Positions 3,001 through 28,537 of a stretch of 30,728 bases of DNA are shown piece after piece. Each line of letters starts with the position of its first letter. Position 1 is the first letter of the stretch. The notes below the pieces were generated by a model, which worked only from the letters and a program-made list of their open reading frames with translations, searched no databases and was not told the DNA's origin. The translations under genes were made by a program, and so were the position numbers. The stretch is from a virus: positions 1-30,728 of IMG/VR virus record IMGVR_UViG_3300006916_000213; one strand, written 5' to 3'.

Positions 3001-4161
3001 TTACTCTAGTCCGTAGATAGCTCCACAACCAAGTGGGTTACGTACTTCAAAAGTTTGCTCTTCAACCATCATTCCTTTGGTTGAGTCACCTTGTTGACCT
3101 ACATCTACTTCCTGCATAGGACGTAGTGTTGCCATTGCAAACCACATTGGATCATAAATCAATGCAGAGAAGTCAGCCATGTTAGTTACACCTGCTCCTG
3201 AGTGAGCAACGTTGTTATCACCTGTAAGTGCAACGTTATTAGTTAATCCCATAATATAGTTAGGGACAACCATAATATCACCAAAGTCTGACATGTATAC
3301 ATCTACTGATTGACGTAGCTTACCTGCATCATCAATATTACGTTGTACACCAGTATCTCCTACCATAAGATCTGAAAAATCCCTACGTAGTTTTGGTGAT
3401 AGCATAATTTGTGTAGCTTTACCACCTTGCTCATAAATCTTTTGCATAACACTATCAATGTTAGTTAATGCAAGAGGATCACGATCAGGTGCTGTTGTTG
3501 AACCATTTATGCTTGAACGTGGAATTGCTGTTCCATCATTGTCAGTTCCTGCGCCAGTTGTAGCAGCTGAAGGAGCTTCAATTTCACCTATATAATCAAC
3601 AGTTGATGCTGAGTTAATAAATGCCTGATAGCCAGCCATTGTACGTGCTGTGTTACCTTGTACACCAACTGCTGCTGCAGTATTATATGCGTGTACTAGA
3701 TCAAATTCAACATCTCTACGTAGCTCTGTACCACGCTTCTTTAGCTGATAAGCATATTCATCAGCAACACCTGCTTGATCTACTGCACGACGTGTGCCTG
3801 ATACTGCAATTGTTTTACCGTTGATTTGTGTGTAGTTACCAAGGCGAGTCCTATTTGGACCGCTTTCAGCAAACTTATTACCGACTGCAGGAGTAGCTGT
3901 TCCGCCACCTGCTGCTGGAGCCAAGAAGTCTTGACCTTCAGCAATCTTAGAATCTCCTGGAGCTTCTAATGTATCTGTTTGCCATTCATGATAAATAGCT
4001 GTTGCCTTCGATTTTCCAATTGAAGACATAAAAGGGGTTTCATCACGAGTAATCATCGTGATAAAGTTAGCAAGATCCTCACGTTGTGAGACGTCTTTGC
4101 CAGTTCCGCGTGCTGGACCTTGTGGTCCACCTGTTCCGCGTACACCGAGATTGGTAGTCAT
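3001..4161 (-). CDS. Major capsid protein, SU10 type (DUF5309)
   Basis: This 386-aa protein has the pattern of the SU10/DUF5309 major capsid family. An N-terminal segment (QREDLANFITMITRDETPFMSSIGK) is followed by the TIYHEWQTDTL-like strand, a central LRRDVEFDL helix, and the C-terminal stretch with SALIYDPMWFAMATLRPMQ. Members adopt the HK97 fold and build the icosahedral head. The ATG has AGGAGG about 9 nt upstream, the strongest late-gene ribosome site here, which fits a highly made protein. The scaffold gene lies immediately upstream and a terminator immediately downstream. An opposite-strand ORF at 3621-3824 is a shadow. Confidence 0.9.
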   Translation of the reverse strand: MTTNLGVRGTGGPQGPARGTGKDVSQREDLANFITMITRDETPFMSSIGKSKATAIYHEWQTDTLEAPGDSKIAEGQDFLAPAAGGGTATPAVGNKFAESGPNRTRLGNYTQINGKTIAVSGTRRAVDQAGVADEYAYQLKKRGTELRRDVEFDLVHAYNTAAAVGVQGNTARTMAGYQAFINSASTVDYIGEIEAPSAATTGAGTDNDGTAIPRSSINGSTTAPDRDPLALTNIDSVMQKIYEQGGKATQIMLSPKLRRDFSDLMVGDTGVQRNIDDAGKLRQSVDVYMSDFGDIMVVPNYIMGLTNNVALTGDNNVAHSGAGVTNMADFSALIYDPMWFAMATLRPMQEVDVGQQGDSTKGMMVEEQTFEVRNPLGCGAIYGLE

Positions 4162-4179: not shown

Positions 4180-5280
4180 TTATCTGTTTAAAGATCGCTC
4201 CGCAAGAGTTTTTAAAAAGTCCATTTGTTCAGATTGGCTAGCATTTCCACTAAGAGCTTTATCTCTTATTGAATTTTGCTTTTCAACCCTTTTCTGAGAG
4301 GCAGGTTTAGCCTTTCTTACAGGCACTGTTTTAACCTTAGTCTCTTTTCTTTTAGCTGCACCTTTAGTGACACCTTGTTTTAATCTTCTATAATCATCAA
4401 CAAATTTTACAATTATAGGATCTGCAATTGTATCAAGTACTTCGGGTGCTATACCTTCATCTATAGCAAATTCACGAATCTGCATAGCTGTTTCTTCATT
4501 AAAGTCAGGAATTAAAGTAGGAATAGTTTCATTAAAGTATTCCAGTTGTGTTTGCCAAGCTTTGTTATTTTCTTCTTCGCGTTGAGTAGATATAGTTTTA
4601 ACTATTCCTTCTCTTTTATTACGAGAGTCCCAATACTTTTTTTGTACTTGTTCACGCTTATCTTTTAATTCATTAACTTCATAAGTATCGCCATCTTCTC
4701 TCGCTTTTTCAATTTGAGATTCAATGTCATGATATTGTTTAGCTAATTGGCTTTCTTCTTGATATAATACAGCAGCAGAAGCTTCAGATAAATTATTTAT
4801 CTCTGCTAGTTTACTATTGTATTCTTCTTCAAGTTCTTTTCTTGCATCGCCTAGTTCACGACCCTTTTTAGAAAGATGTTGTTCAGTAGAGTAACCTTTA
4901 ATAAGATCACCAAAAGAAACTTCAACATTTTCACCATCAACTTTAATGATTGTTTTAGCTTCTAAATCTAAGTCTTCTATTGAGATTATTTCGGATTCAT
5001 CGGTAGCGGATTCTTCATCGGCATCTTCTTCTTCAACAACTTCAACTTCTTCTTCTATTTCTTCTTCAACTTCTTCGTTATCGGCTTCCTCAAGATCGTT
5101 TGGGTCTTGTTGATCTGATTCATCCGTGTCAACTGGAGGTACTTGCTCATCGGGTAGAGATTCAAGAAACTCAGTGTTTCTCATAATGTCAGCCAGCAAA
5201 GCATCTTCTGTTTGACTAACCTTTGCTACAGAGTCATCCATCTGGGTAGAGTCTGTGTTTGCATTGGTATCTGTATCCAT
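4180..5280 (-). CDS. Capsid assembly scaffolding protein
   Basis: A 366-aa, strongly acidic protein. Residues 1-100 are dominated by Asp and Glu (long runs of E/D around residues 60-95). A charged helical, coiled-coil-like middle follows (GRELGDARKELEEEYNSKL), and the C-terminal end is Lys/Arg-rich. Acidic N-terminus, coiled coil and basic capsid-binding tail directly upstream of the capsid gene are the hallmarks of podovirus scaffolds. It would guide procapsid assembly and then leave or be degraded. The stop is 19 nt before the capsid ATG. The start ATG has AGGAGG 7 nt upstream. Confidence 0.85.
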   Translation of the reverse strand: MDTDTNANTDSTQMDDSVAKVSQTEDALLADIMRNTEFLESLPDEQVPPVDTDESDQQDPNDLEEADNEEVEEEIEEEVEVVEEEDADEESATDESEIISIEDLDLEAKTIIKVDGENVEVSFGDLIKGYSTEQHLSKKGRELGDARKELEEEYNSKLAEINNLSEASAAVLYQEESQLAKQYHDIESQIEKAREDGDTYEVNELKDKREQVQKKYWDSRNKREGIVKTISTQREEENNKAWQTQLEYFNETIPTLIPDFNEETAMQIREFAIDEGIAPEVLDTIADPIIVKFVDDYRRLKQGVTKGAAKRKETKVKTVPVRKAKPASQKRVEKQNSIRDKALSGNASQSEQMDFLKTLAERSLNR

Positions 5281-12424: not shown

Positions 12425-13111
12425 ATGGCTTGTTCTGTTTCCCTGCCTACTGTTGTTCGTTCTGTTTCTGTTGTTAACGGCTATCTTGTTGCTGTCTGTG
12501 CCGATGGCTTCTCTCGACGTTGTAAACACTTCTCTTCTGCTCTGAAGTCTCTGCTTGAAGAGTTCGTTTGGGCTGATAACGTTGTTGTGTTTGAAGCTTC
12601 GGGTTCTTGGTCGGTTGACAGCTGGTTCTCTAATGTTCGTGTTCACACGCCTTCTGTTGTAAACATTTCTGATGACGTTGTTATCTTCGATCATGTTAAT
12701 CTCTCTGCGGAAGAAAATGCTGTGTTTATTGAGGCTGTTCGTTATGGTATCCGTCGTCTGCGTCTTACTTCTGAAAATGGGGACGATGTTGGTGTTGATA
12801 TTCGGTTCATGCCAAATGCTGAAGATAGAGAAGATTCTATAACGAAGGGTTGGTGTCGTGTAACAAGCATCGCCAACAAGGATTACAGGATTATGGTTTC
12901 CTATAATAGTAACATGCGCAAGGCAGTAGACACTTTGTTCCATGAGTTACGTCATGTTGCACAGTGGAATGCAGGTGTGTTGAAATCTGATACTGGTGTG
13001 GAGATCTGGAAAGACGAAGAATTTATTAATCCTGACTATTACACATCGCCATGGGAAGTAGATGCAAGAAAAGCAGCTAAAATTGCAACAGATGATTTCT
13101 TCGGAAATTAA
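12425..13111 (+). CDS. HExxH metallopeptidase-like early protein
   Basis: The longer open frame starts at 12317, but GGAGG 6 nt before the ATG at 12425 marks the likely start, giving 228 aa. The C-terminal part has the zinc motif HELRHVAQW (His 173, Glu 174, His 177) in a predicted helix, and SPWEVDARKAA with Glu 211 as a possible third ligand. This arrangement is that of gluzincin-type peptidases. The substrate is unknown. It is the first gene of the plus-strand block, so it may act early on host or packaged proteins. The first ~300 nt use T- and G-rich codons and very few A, unlike the rest of the gene. A 220-codon minus-strand ORF across it is a shadow. Confidence 0.7.
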   Translation: MACSVSLPTVVRSVSVVNGYLVAVCADGFSRRCKHFSSALKSLLEEFVWADNVVVFEASGSWSVDSWFSNVRVHTPSVVNISDDVVIFDHVNLSAEENAVFIEAVRYGIRRLRLTSENGDDVGVDIRFMPNAEDREDSITKGWCRVTSIANKDYRIMVSYNSNMRKAVDTLFHELRHVAQWNAGVLKSDTGVEIWKDEEFINPDYYTSPWEVDARKAAKIATDDFFGN

Positions 13112-13116
13112 GTTGT

Positions 13117-13218
13117 AGGATTATTCTTGTGGATAGCTCCGTGTTCTCCTCCCTACACGTTGAGCTATCCTCAAGGGCAATCCTGCCCTAACAAACTATA
13201 TCGAAAGGAAGATATATG
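13117..13218 (+). promoter_or_regulatory. Pseudoknotted RNA leader, copy 1
   Basis: GGATT (13118-13122) pairs with AATCC in the loop of stem P2 (13179-13183). P1 is GGATAGCTC (13131-13139) with GAGCTATCC (13162-13170), extended inside by CGTGT/ACACG. P2 is AGGGC (13174-13178) with GCCCT (13185-13189). Spacings are 8 nt between the 5' strand and P1, and 3 nt between P1 and P2. A last hairpin TATATC (13197-13202)/GATATA (13211-13216) holds GAAAGGA in its loop and the A of the start codon in its stem. Confidence 0.8.
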
Positions 13219-13515
13219 GACACAGAGACTCTTAACCAAGAGGAAAACATGGTCACTAAGGATGAGTACACGCATATTCAAAATCAAGCTGTAAATCTCC
13301 TTAAAGAAAACTTATTACTAAAGGCTAAATTAAAATACATTGATCTTGTTTCTGATTCTAATCAAGAAATTATTAATTCATTTAATCGAAAGATGATGTT
13401 AGCTGTAGCTAAAAACGAAGAGTTTGATGATCCTCGTACTAAGTATGAAGATGAGATACAGCAAGCTTTTGATGAAATGATAGATATAGAATGTATTGTT
13501 AATAATAAAATATAG
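13216..13515 (+). CDS. Early hypothetical protein (99 aa)
   Basis: A 99-aa acidic, helical protein starting MDTETLNQEENMVTKDEYTH. The middle is a likely coiled coil (NQAVNLLKENLLLKAKLKY). I do not recognise the family. The gene is flanked by leader copy 1, which contains its ribosome site GAAAGGA and start codon, and by a strong intrinsic terminator that begins in the stop region. It therefore looks like a separately controlled single-gene unit. Confidence 0.7.
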   Translation: MDTETLNQEENMVTKDEYTHIQNQAVNLLKENLLLKAKLKYIDLVSDSNQEIINSFNRKMMLAVAKNEEFDDPRTKYEDEIQQAFDEMIDIECIVNNKI

Positions 13516-13540
13516 AGAAAGCCCTTCGGGGCTTTTTCTT
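13516..13540 (+). terminator. Rho-independent terminator with UUCG loop
   Basis: AAAGCCC (13518-13524) pairs with GGGCTTT (13529-13535) across a TTCG tetraloop, followed by TTCTT. It starts directly after the stop of the 99-aa gene. Its last T is also the first base of the 5' strand of leader copy 2, so terminator read-through and leader folding are physically linked. Confidence 0.88.
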
Positions 13541-13621
13541 AATTGCTTAAGTGGGTAGCTCCTAAGCTATCCTCTTGGGTAATTATGCCCTAATAGGCCA
13601 CGAAAGGAGTACAGTATGTGG
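13540..13621 (+). promoter_or_regulatory. Pseudoknotted RNA leader, copy 2
   Basis: TAATT (13540-13544) pairs with AATTA (13581-13585) in the P2 loop. P1 is GGGTAGCT (13553-13560) with AGCTATCC (13565-13572), with a CCTA loop. P2 is GGGT (13577-13580) with GCCC (13587-13590). The 8-nt and 3-nt spacings of copy 1 are kept if P2 opens with a T-T mismatch. The last hairpin CCAC (13598-13601)/GTGG (13618-13621) encloses GAAAGGA and includes the G of the ATG at 13616. Confidence 0.75.
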
Positions 13622-13831
13622 TACGGTAATATAACAAAAGACCTAGAAGATTTAGGCAATAGTAGACTTAGGTTAGATAAAATAGACCTTGTCAATGAAC
13701 GTATAGAAGAGTACCGAGAAAAATCTATACAAAGAGAATTAGCGGAAAAGTTAGACGCTATTCAATATGACAAAAGTGGATTAGATAGGATATCTATAAT
13801 AGGTCGAGGTCGTACTGATTTAAGACATTAG
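13616..13831 (+). CDS. Early hypothetical protein (71 aa)
   Basis: A 71-aa, highly charged helical protein starting MWYGNITKDLEDLGNSRLRL. It has alternating acidic and basic residues and no membrane segment. Leader copy 2 contains its ribosome site (GAAAGGA, 13602-13608). It is followed immediately by AGGAGG for the next small gene. No family recognised. Confidence 0.65.
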   Translation: MWYGNITKDLEDLGNSRLRLDKIDLVNERIEEYREKSIQRELAEKLDAIQYDKSGLDRISIIGRGRTDLRH

Positions 13832-13844
13832 GAGGAGAATGGTT

Positions 13845-13958
13845 ATGGATTCGATTAAATGTGATCGTTGTAAAGATAAAGCTGTAGTTACTAACTATTC
13901 CAGTTGGTGGTTATGTGCTTTATGTTGGTTAAAGGAGCATAAATACAAATGTCGGTAG
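13845..13958 (+). CDS. Zinc-ribbon-like microprotein (37 aa)
   Basis: A short frame, MDSIKCDRCKDKAVVTNYSS and onward, with two CxxC pairs (CDRC and CALC) that could bind one zinc ion. GGAGG at 13831-13835 lies 9 nt before the ATG at 13845; an in-frame ATG at 13839 is too close to that site. The stop overlaps the start of the next peptide gene. Such small zinc-binding proteins are common early phage products that bind host factors. Function unknown. Confidence 0.55.
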   Translation: MDSIKCDRCKDKAVVTNYSSWWLCALCWLKEHKYKCR

Positions 13959-14029
13959 ATTTAATAGTACACATAGTATCTTACAGTTTTATGATAACTG
14001 CAATACTGTTAGCATTGCTAGCGGATTAG
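13949..14029 (+). CDS. Single-helix membrane peptide (26 aa)
   Basis: A 26-codon frame, MSVDLIVHIVSYSFMITAIL then ALLAD, of which residues 5-24 are hydrophobic and would span the membrane once. AAAGGAG lies 11 nt upstream. It overlaps the zinc-ribbon gene by 10 nt. Its stop codon TAG begins at the last base of the 5' pairing strand of leader copy 3 (14023-14027), so terminating ribosomes would cover that strand. Confidence 0.45.
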   Translation: MSVDLIVHIVSYSFMITAILLALLAD

Positions 14030-14107
14030 CCTTCTAGGGAGATCCTAACGGGTCTCTCTTAAAGGACAATCCTGTCCTATAACGCTATGAAAGGAAAATA
14101 ACATGGC
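14023..14107 (+). promoter_or_regulatory. Pseudoknotted RNA leader, copy 3
   Basis: GGATT (14023-14027) pairs with AATCC (14068-14072). P1 is AGGGAGATCC (14036-14045) with GGGTCTCTCT (14050-14059), with a TAAC loop. P2 is AGGAC (14063-14067) with GTCCT (14074-14078). Spacings are again 8 and 3 nt. The last hairpin GCTATG (14084-14089)/CATGGC (14102-14107) holds most of the GAAAGGA in its loop and the SSB start codon in its 3' arm. Confidence 0.8.
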
Positions 14108-14570
14108 AAACGAAAATCAAACAACCATCCTACGTGACTTAACTTTCTTCTGGGCAAAGTTGGATAAACCAGTAGAAACACCATTTGGCACTACTATCTA
14201 CGATCTTCAGGTTAGATTCCCGAAGAAACGAGTTAAGGAAATGTCAGCTTATGGTAAAGTAAAGCCACAAGACGATGGTTCGTTTTCTATTAACATAACC
14301 AGAAAGCCTACTAATGCTAAGGGACAAGAAACTCCTGTACGTGTTGTAGACGAAGTTAAAAGACCATTAGAAGGAAAGATAGGTAATGGTTCTAAAGGTA
14401 ATATTATTGTATATCAATATGATTGGAATGTAGCTGGTAAATCTGGTACTAAGACAATATTGGTTGCGGTACAGGTTACGGAGTTCATAGAATATAAAGA
14501 AGAAAGTTCTATTGATTTTGATATCATAGGTACAGGTCAAGCTGCAGAAGAAGCCAAAGCTGACTTCTAA
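14103..14570 (+). CDS. Single-stranded DNA-binding protein-like, paralogue 1
   Basis: A 155-aa protein. It is built like phage SSBs of the T7 gp2.5 type, with a beta-rich body and an acidic tail ending in Ala-Asp-Phe. It is clearly related to the protein at 18377-18874. Shared blocks include RDxxxxWAKxxxPxxxPFGT, IGNGSxGNI and a VQVTEF-like segment. The acidic, aromatic-ended tail in gp2.5-like SSBs contacts polymerase and primase-helicase. It lies far from the replication genes and is under leader copy 3, whose final stem contains its start codon. By analogy with T4 gp32, self-control of translation is possible (inference). The SSB call is from fold-like pattern, not a search. Confidence 0.65.
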   Translation: MANENQTTILRDLTFFWAKLDKPVETPFGTTIYDLQVRFPKKRVKEMSAYGKVKPQDDGSFSINITRKPTNAKGQETPVRVVDEVKRPLEGKIGNGSKGNIIVYQYDWNVAGKSGTKTILVAVQVTEFIEYKEESSIDFDIIGTGQAAEEAKADF

Positions 14571-14652
14571 GTAGCCTCATGGGGAGATTCGAAAGAGTCT
14601 CTCCTAGAGGACACTTAAGTCCTACCATGAAAAAAGAAAGGAAATATCATGG
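14568..14652 (+). promoter_or_regulatory. Pseudoknotted RNA leader, copy 4
   Basis: TAAGT (14568-14572) pairs with ACTTA (14613-14617). P1 is GGGGAGATTC (14581-14590) with GAGTCTCTCC (14595-14604), capped by a GAAA tetraloop. P2 is AGGAC (14608-14612) with GTCCT (14619-14623). Spacings are 8 and 3 nt. The last hairpin CCATG (14625-14629)/CATGG (14648-14652) loops out GAAAGGA and pairs the ATG. The 5' strand begins at the stop codon of the SSB gene. Confidence 0.82.
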
Positions 14653-14816
14653 ACATAACAGATATACTCAATATGAGTACAACATCTTTAACCGAGCTAC
14701 ATGAAGCTATCTCGGCTGAACTTCAAGATCGCACACTCAGAATTCCTGAGACATGGGATGAAGAAGAATATCAACAACTAGAACTTATCGAAAGCAGAAG
14801 GAGAACTGGAGCATGA
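14649..14816 (+). CDS. Small acidic early protein (55 aa)
   Basis: A 55-codon frame starting MDITDILNMSTTSLTELHEA, acidic and helical, with a basic end (ESRRRTGA). The start codon is held in the terminal stem of leader copy 4, and the TGA overlaps the next ATG (ATGA). No family recognised. The leader and coupling are the evidence for a real gene. Confidence 0.65.
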   Translation: MDITDILNMSTTSLTELHEAISAELQDRTLRIPETWDEEEYQQLELIESRRRTGA

Positions 14817-15034: not shown

Positions 15035-15108
15035 TGGCTATTATTATAGGCTTAATAGTATTTTTAATACTAGTATTTAGATTCTTTTTAATATACAAAA
15101 AGTTGTAA
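15034..15108 (+). CDS. Single-helix membrane peptide (24 aa)
   Basis: A 24-codon frame, MAIIIGLIVFLILVFRFFLI then YKKL, almost wholly hydrophobic with a basic end, as in a one-pass membrane peptide with cytoplasmic C-terminus. Its ATG overlaps the TAA of the preceding gene. It has no ribosome site of its own, so it would depend on re-initiation. The inverted repeat AGTATTTTTAATACT lies within it. Confidence 0.4.
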   Translation: MAIIIGLIVFLILVFRFFLIYKKL

Positions 15109-15118
15109 TTAAATAAAA

Positions 15119-15267
15119 CCACTTTGAGACTATTAATAGGACCACTTTGGTACTATTTATAGTAATACTCACAGTAAACACTGAGACCTCTTACCGTAGT
15201 AAGTTATTAAAAGTATTTAATAGTAACACTTTGGTACTATTAATAGGACCACTTTGGTATTATTAGG
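15119..15267 (+). repeat. Four direct repeats with palindromic core in a gene-free gap
   Basis: The gap 15109-15364 has no gene. It holds four copies of a 22-23 bp unit (CACTTTGGTACTATTAATAG plus GGA) at 15120, 15143, 15227 and 15250. They form two pairs, each with a 23-bp period. Two copies carry the perfect palindrome CTATTAATAG; the other two are degenerate. The arrangement suits iterons of an origin or operators of a regulator. The rest of the gap is AT-rich and holds only the ribosome site of the next gene. Confidence 0.7.
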
Positions 15268-18039: not shown

Positions 18040-18377
18040 AATACGAACACTACAAAGCATTTTTAGATGCAGAAAGGAAGGCAGAAATGTCTAAAGAAAA
18101 CAACGCAATAAGCCCTAAGCATTATAAAGAAATACTACCAGGGTACGAATATATGGACATGATGGTTTATATGCTTAAAGATATGAACGGTTATGAAGCT
18201 CATCTTATGGGGCAGATGTACAAGTATCTTATGCGTTATGGGAAGAAAGACGATAAGCTACAAGAATTAGGTAAAGTAAAATGGTATCTTGAGTTTCTAA
18301 TGAAACGATTAGAACGTGAAGAAACTATAAGTAATGCCGAAAGAGAAATCAATAAACACTTTAAAGAAAGAGGATAA
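18036..18377 (+). CDS. DUF3310 protein, T7 gp1.7-like
   Basis: A 113-aa protein. The block ISPKHYKEILPGYEYMDMMV with the following KYLMRYGKKDDKLQELGKVK is typical of DUF3310, the family of T7 gene 1.7, whose product has nucleotide kinase activity. It would help convert host nucleotides to dNTPs. Two starts are possible: the ATG at 18036, and an in-frame ATG at 18087 with GAAAGGA 8 nt upstream, which is the stronger ribosome site. Its stop overlaps the SSB-like gene (TAATG). Confidence 0.75.
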   Translation: MKYEHYKAFLDAERKAEMSKENNAISPKHYKEILPGYEYMDMMVYMLKDMNGYEAHLMGQMYKYLMRYGKKDDKLQELGKVKWYLEFLMKRLEREETISNAEREINKHFKERG

Positions 18378-18874
18378 TGAGTATGCTAGATGATAAAAGA
18401 ACAGTAATTATTAGAGACGCAGAATTACACTGGGCAAAAGTAGTAACACCTGTAAGTCCATTCGGAACTTCACAATGGGAAGTACAAATACGTACTAGAG
18501 ATGAAAAGAAAGCTAAAGAATGGAAAGATAAATTCTATTTAACTACTAAGACAGAAAAGGATGATGATGGAGTTTATTATAAATCAAATATTAAACGTAA
18601 AGCAATCAACAAAGACGGAAATCCTAATACACCACCTGAAGTACTCGATGGTAACAAACAGTCTATTGATGGAACTACCATTGGTAATGGTTCTATCGGA
18701 AATATAATGTTATTTCAATATCCTTACGATGTTAGCGGTAGAAAAGGAGTAGGGTCTATACTCTCTAAAATACAAGTAACTGAATTATTAAAGTATCAAC
18801 CTACGCAAGCAGTTGATTTTGAAATCGAAGATAACGAAGATGTACCAGAAGAAATAGACAAGGTAGATTTTTAA
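18377..18874 (+). CDS. Single-stranded DNA-binding protein-like, paralogue 2
   Basis: A 165-aa homologue of the protein at 14103-14570. Common blocks include RDAELHWAKVVTPVSPFGT, IGNGSIGNIMLFQYPYDV and KIQVTEL. The C-terminus is acidic (DNEDVPEEIDKVDF) and ends in Asp-Phe, like gp2.5-type SSBs that use such a tail to recruit polymerase and helicase. It is in the replication block directly after the DUF3310 gene, and it lacks the pseudoknotted leader of its paralogue. This one is the better candidate for the replicative SSB (inference). Confidence 0.7.
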   Translation: MSMLDDKRTVIIRDAELHWAKVVTPVSPFGTSQWEVQIRTRDEKKAKEWKDKFYLTTKTEKDDDGVYYKSNIKRKAINKDGNPNTPPEVLDGNKQSIDGTTIGNGSIGNIMLFQYPYDVSGRKGVGSILSKIQVTELLKYQPTQAVDFEIEDNEDVPEEIDKVDF

Positions 18875-26215: not shown

Positions 26216-26451
26216 AACATGATCCTAATTATGTTGCATGGGTTGAATGCACAAGAGAAGAATTAGATCAAATAAAAGAAATATTCCCTGTCGAAAATTA
26301 TGAGATTCTAGTCGGGATTAAAACAAATTACAATCCAATAACTTGCGATATTCAAACATTACACAACCCACCAGCCCCAACTTGGGGTGTAGATATTAGA
26401 AAGAGAAATGATGCAGGACATAAAACAATATCTCTTAACGAGAATCCGTAG
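26191..26451 (+). CDS. Hypothetical protein before RNA polymerase (86 aa)
   Basis: An 86-aa protein starting MQVNFKQLKHDPNYVAWVEC, with a Pro- and His-containing C-terminal half (TLHNPPAPTWGVDIRKR). GAAAGGA lies 13-14 nt before the ATG, within the deaminase gene. It overlaps the RNA polymerase start by 44 nt. No motif recognised. Confidence 0.55.
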   Translation: MQVNFKQLKHDPNYVAWVECTREELDQIKEIFPVENYEILVGIKTNYNPITCDIQTLHNPPAPTWGVDIRKRNDAGHKTISLNENP

Positions 26452-28537
26452 TGAGGATCTAGGTGTAAAACCTAGACGTAATATTCAAATAATGCGAATG
26501 ATTGACACTGATGGTGTAGATATGCTTGATTTCTTAGTAGATGATATGATAAGCTATGCCAGAAAATATATACAACGTTGCTTTAAACGTAGTAAAACAG
26601 AGGGTGAAACGCCTATTACTCAAACTTCAATGGCTATAGGTAAATATATAGTTGAAGGTTGGGACAGTAACAATGTTAACTTTAGAGACCATGTTAGAGT
26701 AGGTGATTTAATTATTGAAGGCTTTGTTATGTGTAATTACTTAACAATATCTGTGGGTCATATTAAGAGTCGTAAGCCAGTTACTATACACGCTACTGAT
26801 AAATGGGGTGAGATGGAAGTAATTGCTGGTAAAACTAATTGTATTAGTGAAACAGCTATTCCTATTATTACTTCTTTGTTTCAAGATAATGGAAAGCCTG
26901 TTATTAAAACATGGGACAAATCTAAAGAGCATTTGTTTATTAAATATAAAGATAAACCATTTGTAAAGGCAATAAATAAACTTCAAGCAACTCGATTTAA
27001 GGTTAATAATGAAGTACATCAAGCAATTCTAGATAACTATTCTATGTTTATTAAGACTGAAAAGTTTTCTGGAGATGATAAGAAAGAGAATGATAAGCTA
27101 TATCAACGTCAAGCTTCAAAAAACAGAGAAGTAAAAGAGATAATGGCTACTGCAGCTAAGTGGCTGTCTAAAGATTTTTACTTTTATATTGACGCTGATT
27201 ATAGAGGAAGATTATATTACTCAGAACCTTTCTTTAACTTCCAAGGATCAGACATGGCAAGAGGACAATTACTCTTTTCAGAAGGTAAACTGTTTAATGA
27301 ATCTGCTAATTTCTGGTTAGCCGTTCATACTGCTTGTTGTTACAATCGTTCTTATCATATAGAAGAAATACCTAATTGGGTTACAACTGATTACAAAAGT
27401 ATCTTAGAAGAAGAAGGCTTAGATACTATCTCAGTAGATAAAATGACATTAGAAGACAGAGCAATGTGGACTCAACAACACCTAGAAGAAATTCTTGAAT
27501 TAGGTGAAATGAAAATAATAAGTAAAGAAGCAGAAAAAGAAATTTCTTTTCTAGCTTGTTGTATTGAGTGGTATAACTACTATAAGGCTCAACAAGATGA
27601 TCTTGACTTTTATACTCATCTTCCTTTACCTATTGATGGGGCTAATAACGGTTGGCAACACCTTGGTGCAATGTCTAAAGACGAGAAGACAGGACTATTA
27701 GTAGGTCTTATACCTAGAAAAGTGCAAAATGATTTTTATGTACAGATAGCTAAACGACTTACTGAACGTATGCCTGATTGGTTCGAAGAAAGAGAAATAC
27801 CAATGAAGCATATTAGAAAAGGAATTGCTAAGCGAGCTGCTATGACTCGTGCTTACAGCTGTGGTCAAAAGAAAATGGCTGAATCAATGTATAGCGATTG
27901 TTATCAATATGGTTATACTAATTTATATAATATTTCCGAACAAGACTGTATAGATCTTAGCGGTCAAATAATAAAAGCAATTGAAGAAGTCTGCCCAGGA
28001 CCATTAACTACTATGAAATATCTTCAACAATTAGCTGACCAAGAGATACTTAATTGGAGAGGATTGTACGGTACAGATAGAGGCCACGCTATAGAATGGG
28101 AAACACCATCTGGATTTCCTGTTATATATGAGTGTTATCGTACTAGACCTGTTAAGGTAGATTGCTACGGATTTAATACTCCGCAAGGAGAAATAAGATT
28201 TAAACACGTACTTAGAGAAAAGACTGATATCCCTGATAGAAGAGGATTCATGTGTGGTATCAGCCCTAACTTTGTTCATAGCATGGATGCTAGTCATATG
28301 GCATTAGTAATTGCAGAGTGGGATAGCGACTTTGGTGCAGTGCATGATTCGTTTAGTAGTTACGCTACAGAAACAGAACGTCTCATGGTAGATACTAGAG
28401 AAAAGTTTATCACGCTATATGACAAAGAAAACTTTTATGATACTATTCCCTTCGGAAAAGGTATTAATATACTCCCTCCTACAATTGGCGTATTGCAAAT
28501 ATCTGAAGTTATTAATTCTGATTACTTGTTTTGTTAA
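26408..28537 (+). CDS. T7-like single-subunit RNA polymerase
   Basis: A 709-aa polymerase. The landmarks are ADYRGRLYY (Asp 264, Arg 268; the DxxGR motif), PLPIDGANNGWQH (motif A, Asp 410), KGIAKRAAMTRAYS (motif B, Lys 475, Tyr 483), GISPNFVHSMDASH before motif C, and AVHDSF (motif C, Asp 647). The C-terminus ends in an aromatic-hydrophobic foot (SDYLFC), like FAFA of T7. The N-terminal domain before DxxGR is about 157 residues shorter than in T7, so promoter melting and the early-to-elongation switch may differ. It would transcribe the middle and late genes; the CCCTTATAGG sites are its likely promoters (inference). Confidence 0.93.
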   Translation: MMQDIKQYLLTRIRSEDLGVKPRRNIQIMRMIDTDGVDMLDFLVDDMISYARKYIQRCFKRSKTEGETPITQTSMAIGKYIVEGWDSNNVNFRDHVRVGDLIIEGFVMCNYLTISVGHIKSRKPVTIHATDKWGEMEVIAGKTNCISETAIPIITSLFQDNGKPVIKTWDKSKEHLFIKYKDKPFVKAINKLQATRFKVNNEVHQAILDNYSMFIKTEKFSGDDKKENDKLYQRQASKNREVKEIMATAAKWLSKDFYFYIDADYRGRLYYSEPFFNFQGSDMARGQLLFSEGKLFNESANFWLAVHTACCYNRSYHIEEIPNWVTTDYKSILEEEGLDTISVDKMTLEDRAMWTQQHLEEILELGEMKIISKEAEKEISFLACCIEWYNYYKAQQDDLDFYTHLPLPIDGANNGWQHLGAMSKDEKTGLLVGLIPRKVQNDFYVQIAKRLTERMPDWFEEREIPMKHIRKGIAKRAAMTRAYSCGQKKMAESMYSDCYQYGYTNLYNISEQDCIDLSGQIIKAIEEVCPGPLTTMKYLQQLADQEILNWRGLYGTDRGHAIEWETPSGFPVIYECYRTRPVKVDCYGFNTPQGEIRFKHVLREKTDIPDRRGFMCGISPNFVHSMDASHMALVIAEWDSDFGAVHDSFSSYATETERLMVDTREKFITLYDKENFYDTIPFGKGINILPPTIGVLQISEVINSDYLFC

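Follow-up and report, generated by a model that had tools for sequence, protein, structure and literature searches.

Four structured RNA leaders lie between genes in a virus record from IMG/VR, and the question raised by this locus is what function is served by an RNA element that a phage carries in several copies in front of different genes. The window, which is the whole 30,728-base stretch of that record, has a T7-like gene content comprising two genes for gp2.5-like single-stranded DNA (ssDNA)-binding proteins as well as genes for a DNA polymerase, a primase-helicase and a phage RNA polymerase. Each leader is followed 23-25 nucleotides (nt) downstream by a start codon with a Shine-Dalgarno-like sequence (4/4), and one of these start codons belongs to the first gp2.5-like gene (ssb). 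The four leaders are confirmed to represent a selected RNA fold, and they belong to a family with real covariation for which no Rfam model matches the window. There is about an even chance that the leaders are intercistronic RNA cleavage elements which divide a polycistronic transcript, probably through T7-like processing by RNase III.

A leader family with two mutually exclusive helices

In a sequence-only reading of the window each leader was described as a 5-nt strand, an 8-nt spacer, hairpin P1, a 3-nt junction (J) and hairpin P2, with the loop of P2 pairing back to the 5-nt strand (P3) to form a pseudoknot. All of the P1, P2 and P3 pairs listed there, as well as the 8- and 3-nt spacings, are present in the sequence at the four places given. 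P2 of copy 2 does not form the model's first pair and has four pairs. The claim that compensatory changes mark a selected fold held up as well: P1, P2 and P3 all covary, no Rfam model matches the window, and covariance-model searches located further copies in related phages.

A bare descriptor of P3, P1 and P2 was unselective (41 unique matches in 1.06 Mb of loci versus 31-34 in three shuffles), and its matches were kept only where they had sequence in common with the window copies. A covariance model of P1 and P2 only, which lacks P3 and is designated R1, was trained on 15 copies from the descriptor and the window. R1 gave 40 matches with E values below 9e-7 in 21 sources; these sources were preselected in that earlier, wider searches had matched them, and 15 of the matches are the training copies. 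With duplicate contigs removed, the family comprises 41 copies in 21 contigs, the window included. Of the 113 P3 cells in the 23 distinct copies that were not used for training, 102 are paired, a value not reached in any of 2000 shuffles (mean 84.1, maximum 97). P3 pairs 2-5 are formed in 89/91 cells of these copies, and 113 of their 115 P2 cells are paired. The outermost P3 pair is broken in 9/33 copies. For P3 alone the number of pairs changed on both sides is not above shuffles (344/500 as high), whereas the other four measures are.

Several loci (designated L) required adjustment of the counts. The 41 elements give 38 distinct ones, with L118:2093 below the R1 cut-off and with L081:234 and L146 the same in element sequence as L014:1891 and L028:4061, respectively. 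Duplicates left uncounted are L082 (as L080), L147 (L146), L155 (L154), L048 (L003), L116 (L077), L119 (L060), L121 (L082), L123 (L017), L132 (L005) and L138 (L035), together with L001, L006, L008, L112 and L126, each of which is either the window or a record that matches it exactly across ssb and the polymerase gene, and L025/L141, a truncated copy. L097 was removed from the training alignment because MAFFT had misplaced it.

Searches of known collections returned little for the leaders. Within the window itself no Rfam model matched at gathering level, ribozyme and riboswitch models included, and positions 13050-14700 gave six weak matches with a best E value of 0.7. Blastn of the leader region found no match among INPHARED phages, and the ssb alignment found no relative among bacterial genome contigs. 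Among the matches listed from the open-access literature, neither the element nor hammerhead ribozymes in roseophage leaders turned up.

The 8-nt spacer, which had been read as unpaired, itself pairs with the 3-nt junction and the 5' strand of P2 to form a further helix, P1b. Alignment columns 8-11 and 77-80 are paired in 34, 28, 34 and 28 of 34 distinct copies, and pair types include CCTT/AAGG, CCTC/GAGG, CCAA/TTGG, TTAAG/CTTGG and ACAGG/CCTGT. In layers 6-13, 154/272 cells are paired, compared with a maximum of 149 in 5000 shuffles. The covariation score of P1b is 0.378 and that of slid versions is at most 0.183, and three of five measures exceed 500/500 shuffles. P3, P1b and P1 constitute one nested rod with 13 nt per side below P1, so P3 can also be the foot of this rod. 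Of the approximately 23 layers, the lowest belong to P3 (4-5 base pairs (bp)); a 2x2 internal loop separates P3 from P1b (4-5 bp), another small internal loop separates P1b from P1 (about 9-11 bp), and P1 ends in an apical loop. Layers 1-12 are all paired in copy 2 (12/12). The fixed spacings of 8 and 3 are accounted for by the rod, since its symmetry requires that 8 = 3 + 5. Base triples of the spacer in the groove of P2 were considered by eye and rejected, as the antiparallel changes fit P1b better.

Since P1b and P2 require the same 5' strand they are mutually exclusive, and both are conserved. RNAfold places the energy of the rod below that of nested P1 plus P2 in 32/35 rows, and in 29/35 the nested fold of minimum energy is the rod; for L085 an insertion in P1 distorts the forced A and B energies. 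A tree-aware covariation test was run with our own script on all column pairs of 38 copies, with changes redistributed over one FastTree tree in 60 simulations. Eight pairs reached E<=0.05 and all eight belong to the rod: five in P1, two in P1b (10-78 and 12-76) and one in P3 (2-86). Next in rank were P3 pair 4-84 (0.13) and P1b pair 11-77 (0.17); the best P2 pair (0.45) came just behind 10-95 (0.43), a pair that is not part of the structure. P2 is real despite its weaker rank in this test, as 167/170 of its cells are paired and it includes several distinct compensated stems. That the fold is a pseudoknot, as proposed in the sequence-only reading, is thus not supported in that form: the three helices covary, but the P1b rod ranks above P2 and is usually the minimum-energy fold. 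Moreover, P3 also fits the nested rod, and therefore its covariation does not establish the pseudoknot.

Type II hammerhead sequences in the corresponding slots of sister phages

By a mechanical rule, a start codon with a Shine-Dalgarno-like sequence lies 13-48 nt 3' of the leader in all 38 copies examined out of the 41 (of the other three, L077 and L118:54 are at contig ends and L081:234 is a duplicate). The genes that follow include ssb, a family of 130-134 amino acids, a family whose products begin with MWxG, and others, and many copies are immediate neighbors of ssb on one side or the other. In 18/41 copies an upstream open reading frame (ORF) of at least 20 codons has its stop codon among the first 9 nt of the leader; this is a raw count without a chance control, in which the overlap at L057:127 is doubtful, as that copy comes after a terminator.

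In the ssb loci L130-L138 (ssb 47-64% identical) the rod is missing and another leader takes its place. The Rfam model Hammerhead_II (RF02276) scores above gathering in Roseobacter phage CRP-7 (MK613349; L113, about 570-633, before gp02) and at L136:2445-2522, and ten more rows match below gathering with E values of 0.0012-0.022. The feature table displayed for this stretch of CRP-7 lists only coding sequences. A hammerhead model built in this analysis from 12 of the Rfam-matched rows (R3) returned 24 rows, or 22 copies in 13 contigs when duplicates are removed, of which 10 are new and 12 are training copies. These sequences lie before ssb, right after ssb (as does window copy 4) and before other ORFs, and an upstream stop codon falls in the first 9 nt of 11/22, again a raw count without a chance control.

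Hammerheads before ssb have the core CCGAUGA in place of CUGAUGA in 8/10 cases; L035/L138 has CUGAUGA, and L016:3699 was not inspected. The C for U at core position 4 is found in the ssb leaders of L130, L131, L005/L132, L133, L134, L135, L136 and L137, and the other hammerheads displayed from these phages have the canonical core.

Both elements can occur in one phage. In L017 two rods, at 3246 and 3666, are accompanied by a hammerhead that lies at 4238, directly after ssb, and CRP-7 and L097 each have a hammerhead along with a divergent rod-like element. In a tree of 30 ssb rows (16 with a rod, 10 with a hammerhead and 4 with neither) the hammerhead label needs three changes, each of which is forced by well-supported branches. 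Two of these separate sister pairs, namely L017 (rod) from L016 (hammerhead) with support of 99/99 and L014 (rod) from L035 (hammerhead) with support of 84/88, and the third separates a hammerhead group of eight rows from the group that contains the window. The hammerhead at the ssb slot has, as read from this tree, been gained or lost at least three times, and the leaders are probably interchangeable with hammerhead ribozymes at intercistronic slots.

The window leaders themselves are not hammerheads. RF02276 has no match at gathering in the window and none at E<=5 in 13050-14700, and R3 has no match in the window at E<=0.05. The hammerhead core (C3U4G5A6N7G8A9, G12A13A14, A15.1-U16.1 and H17) was not found in any of the four leaders.

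Three further arrangements were observed near leader slots. An extra small hairpin directly 3' of P2 occurs in eight copies (L003:4363, L077:30, L017:3666, L080:908, L122:3128, L118:54, L085:1453 and L014:1891), five of which precede ssb; its loop is mostly P2-like (AATCAT, AATCTT, AATGGT and others), L003 being different, and no upstream partner was seen for it. L016:2622 and L122:2397 have a lone P2-like hairpin of the GGACAATCC-GTCC type, without P1 or P3, after a terminator-like T-run and before a start codon. As judged by eye, five phages have after ssb, in the slot of window copy 4, a hairpin that is simple and of greater length, such as GAGGGGTAGC/GCTACCTCTC (L028:4608, L057:3466, L060:5110, and L099:4018 and L084:5210 in reverse strand numbering).

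Proposed cleavage between cistrons weighed against other functions

It is fairly probable that the leaders function in cutting the transcript, and the strongest evidence for this is the repeated swap at one slot with a self-cleaving RNA. A host nuclease, for which RNase III is the most likely candidate, would act on the rod and cut its 3' strand at or close to the 3-nt junction that separates P1 from P2. RNase III cuts in T7 fall in an internal loop, on its 3' side, and by that rule the cut would be at the internal loop between P1 and P1b. After cleavage, the P1 hairpin would cap the 3' end of the upstream message. The cut would also release the 5' strand of P2 from P1b and P3, allowing P2 to fold at the new 5' end, where it would shield the downstream message. 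Conservation of both P1b and P2 would then be explained by a requirement for the rod before the cut and for P2 after it. The resulting order of hairpin, cut and hairpin matches the products of a type II hammerhead, in which stem III is upstream and stem I downstream.

The closest precedent is provided by the early region of T7, in which the RNase III sites include R0.3, R0.5 and R1.1 and are unannotated in the T7 record. When the early gaps of T7 were folded, 5/6 gave irregular hairpins with upper stems of 9-13 bp, and the gap before gene 0.7 did not. PMC6121014 places R1.1 between genes 1.0 and 1.1 and reports that an alphaproteobacterial RNase III cuts it. Like the leaders, the T7 sites are irregular hairpins between cistrons near starts, with an upper stem of 9-13 bp, an internal loop and a lower stem; the T7 cistrons are early ones. 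All four window copies lie between ORFs, which are presumably early and on one transcript, and the rod has the form of an irregular hairpin of about two helical turns with an internal loop. The leaders differ from the T7 sites in having two small, mostly symmetrical internal loops rather than one asymmetrical loop, in adding a P2 that competes with the lower stem, and in their near-invariant P3 columns. Cleavage of the leaders by RNase III is proposed here by analogy.

Type II hammerheads share with the leaders their slots, a similar stop overlap, the order of hairpin, cut and hairpin that is predicted for the leaders, and a loop pseudoknot. They differ in that the leaders lack GAAA and CUGAUGA, no invariant unpaired core was found in the leaders, and the pseudoknot partner is 5' in the leaders and 3' in the hammerhead. 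In PMC3088659, stems I and III of type II hammerheads are described as closed by loops, and processing of phage transcripts is proposed as a role for tandem hammerheads that flank prophage genes.

A number of observations weigh against the cleavage reading. RNase III as the cutting enzyme, a suggestion from geometry and analogy, has roughly equal chances of being right or wrong. Further pair types in P1b (355/500 shuffles as high) and P1b pairs changed on both sides (54/500) are within chance, and pair 12-76 is a standard pair in 10/34 copies only, which points to correlated change within an internal loop and not to a helix. A subfamily consisting of L004:5762, L028, L057:2914, L099:6029, L122:4761 and L149:2913 has two of its four P1b pairs broken; P1 plus P2 has about the energy of the rod where computed for this subfamily, and its likeness to a T7 site is weaker. 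L154:2909, L014:1485 and L118:54 each break one pair. The divergent elements of CRP-7 and L097, found by descriptor and hairpin scans and not by the models R1 or R2, have P1, P2 and P3 but no P1b; even so, the fold of lowest energy for them is a rod, one whose internal loop is larger. When P3 stacking is included and no pseudoknot penalty is applied, the pseudoknot and the rod have about the same mean energy (-26.2 and -26.0 kcal/mol, respectively). P3 columns 3, 5, 83 and 85 are invariant or nearly so, for which a plain RNase III rod gives no reason, and no P2-like hairpin was seen at the T7 sites in an unsystematic inspection by eye. Finally, a T-tract immediately precedes 4/41 copies, for which the need of a cut site is less evident, and the ssb loci L151, L152, L156, L157 and L158 gave neither a rod nor a hammerhead.

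Since both states are conserved, the leaders could instead be bistable translational switches in which the rod (P3, P1b and P1) and the pseudoknot (P1, P2 and P3) are two functional states, a reading that we consider unlikely though deserving of attention. The choice between the states could be made, for instance, by a ribosome that terminates at the upstream stop and would thus cover P3 together with the spacer. It would alter how accessible the Shine-Dalgarno sequence is, or the coupling with the gene upstream. Covariation of both mutually exclusive helices, the stop codons at the 5' edge of many leaders and the proximity of start codons are all in keeping with a switch. So is the hairpin of at least five Watson-Crick pairs which holds the Shine-Dalgarno sequence in its loop and extends up to the start codon, as it follows 21/38 leaders compared with 63/299 other sites (Fisher p 2.8e-5); a laxer definition of the hairpin separates less well (32/38 rods, 16/22 hammerheads and 261/417 controls). 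The 3' strand of P2 was tried by eye as an anti-Shine-Dalgarno sequence, but its complementarity is inconsistent: it fails in L017:3246 (GTGCA) and is weak in copies 1 and 2. In addition, some copies have no translated gene directly upstream, and hammerheads, which cut rather than switch, occupy the same slots with the same stop overlap.

The exchange at one slot, along with the invariant P3 columns, also brings a new class of small self-cleaving ribozyme into consideration, in which P1, J and P2 with the loop pseudoknot would replace the hammerhead and cut between P1 and P2. This is improbable, as is the more general form of the idea, that of a ribozyme class or ribozyme-like RNA with its own chemistry, repeatedly exchanged with hammerheads at the intercistronic slots of these podovirus-like phages, whose rod as the RNA's fold would be inactive and whose pseudoknot would be active. 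In its favor is an argument of guilt by association like that used for pistol, which PMC4604425 describes as discovered near ribozyme-associated genes and as having 10 highly conserved nucleotides. The arrangement of two hairpins joined by a linker with a loop pseudoknot likewise resembles that of pseudoknot hammerheads as outlined in PMC11300833. Against it, none of the tallied columns that are unpaired in the rod (6, 7, 12, 13, 75 and 76) is invariant, with at most 29/34 copies alike, so that no near-invariant unpaired core was found in this tally, from which column 88 and the apical loop were left out; C8 is alike in 31/34 copies but is paired in P1b. The spacer and J vary, and they covary as partners. 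Pistol is likewise phage-associated and has a hairpin with a loop pseudoknot, but the order of loop and partner is the opposite, as pistol uses the loop of its first stem P1, and the leaders show no comparable set of conserved unpaired nucleotides.

The ssDNA-binding proteins (SSBs) are classic autoregulators, an example being autogenous control through the leader of gene 32 in T4. The leaders of the window could likewise be translational operators bound by a protein, such as one for SSB control of this kind extended to neighboring genes. This would agree with the many copies that adjoin ssb, and recognition could be the role of the invariant P3 columns; like copy 3, the pseudoknot of the T4 gene 32 leader is a structured leader upstream of a phage SSB gene. 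We nevertheless hold an operator to be quite improbable, since the ORF that follows has no SSB match for three of the four window copies, sister phages have a hammerhead as their ssb leader, and the leaders, unlike that of gene 32, have a rod alternative and also stand before other ORFs. The HK022 put sequence is the precedent for an RNA antiterminator. A put-like element acting on host RNA polymerase would be consistent with two hairpins at fixed spacing near a terminator and with the location of the phage RNA polymerase gene far 3' of the leaders, but its probability is very low given that copies sit just after a T-tract in 4/41 cases and near a start codon in the 38 examined, and it would leave the exchange with hammerheads unexplained. 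SSB autoregulation and put-like antitermination thus fit less well than the cleavage reading. Among the roles that the sequence-only reading had suggested, a processed 5' end agrees with intercistronic cleavage, and a ligand sensor found no support here; overall, its interpretation is partly supported.

Surroundings of the leaders and their meaning

Coordinates of the leaders and associated features are given in Table 1. We infer from the T7-like gene content that the genes after the leaders are early genes.

Table 1. Leaders, neighboring genes and related features of the window
Feature	Positions	Strand	Details
Leader copy 1	13118..13190	+	P3 13118-13122/13179-13183; spacer including 5' strand of P1b 13123-13130; P1 13131-13139/13162-13170; J 13171-13173; P2 13174-13178/13185-13189
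P4 of copy 1	13197..13216	+	Hairpin TATATC/GATATA with the Shine-Dalgarno sequence in its loop; extends to the start codon
ORF 3' of copy 1	13216..13515	+	99 amino acids; no PHROGs or Pfam family at E 0.001
Hairpin and T-run resembling an intrinsic terminator	13516..13540	+	Adjoins the 5' strand of P3 of copy 2; hairpin judged by eye
Leader copy 2	13540..13592	+	P3 13540-13544/13581-13585; spacer 13545-13552; P1 13553-13560/13565-13572; J 13573-13575; P2 13577-13580/13587-13590
ORF 3' of copy 2	13616..13831	+	71 amino acids; N-terminus MWYG
Leader copy 3, of the gp2.5-like ssDNA-binding protein gene	14023..14079	+	P3 14023-14027/14068-14072; spacer 14028-14035; P1 14036-14059; J 14060-14062; P2 14063-14067/14074-14078
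ssb, gp2.5-like ssDNA-binding protein	14103..14570	+	phrog_112, E 2.3e-9; C-terminus ends in DF
Leader copy 4	14568..14624	+	Begins on the ssb stop codon; P3 14568-14572/14613-14617; spacer 14573-14580; P1 14581-14604; J 14605-14607; P2 14608-14612/14619-14623
ORF 3' of copy 4	14649..14816	+	55 amino acids; no PHROGs or Pfam family at E 0.001
Second gp2.5-like ssDNA-binding protein gene	18377-18874		
Phage RNA polymerase gene	26408-28537		

Hairpins like P4 also follow copies 2-4. The MWxG start of the ORF after copy 2 is common to ORFs that follow leaders in L003, L017, L057, L081, L122 and L154. Of the two gp2.5-like genes in the window, only the first is assigned a leader by the covariance models. 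Elsewhere in the window, positions 15108-15264 hold an AT-rich repeat of two imperfect 50-nt copies with CCACTTTGGTACTATT units, possibly an origin or promoter region, and positions 19-1054 hold repeats with a 21-nt period that perhaps encode a fiber protein with heptad repeats on the minus strand.

The leaders document an RNA family that has no Rfam match in the window and that possesses two mutually exclusive conserved helices, and a hammerhead is documented in the cultured roseophage CRP-7, from whose displayed feature table it is missing. The two elements together amount to a natural experiment, in that a single gene boundary appears to accept either a ribozyme or an RNA element of another kind. 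This makes the purpose of the phage hammerheads testable: equal message ends from both elements, if they are indeed produced, would identify that purpose as transcript processing.

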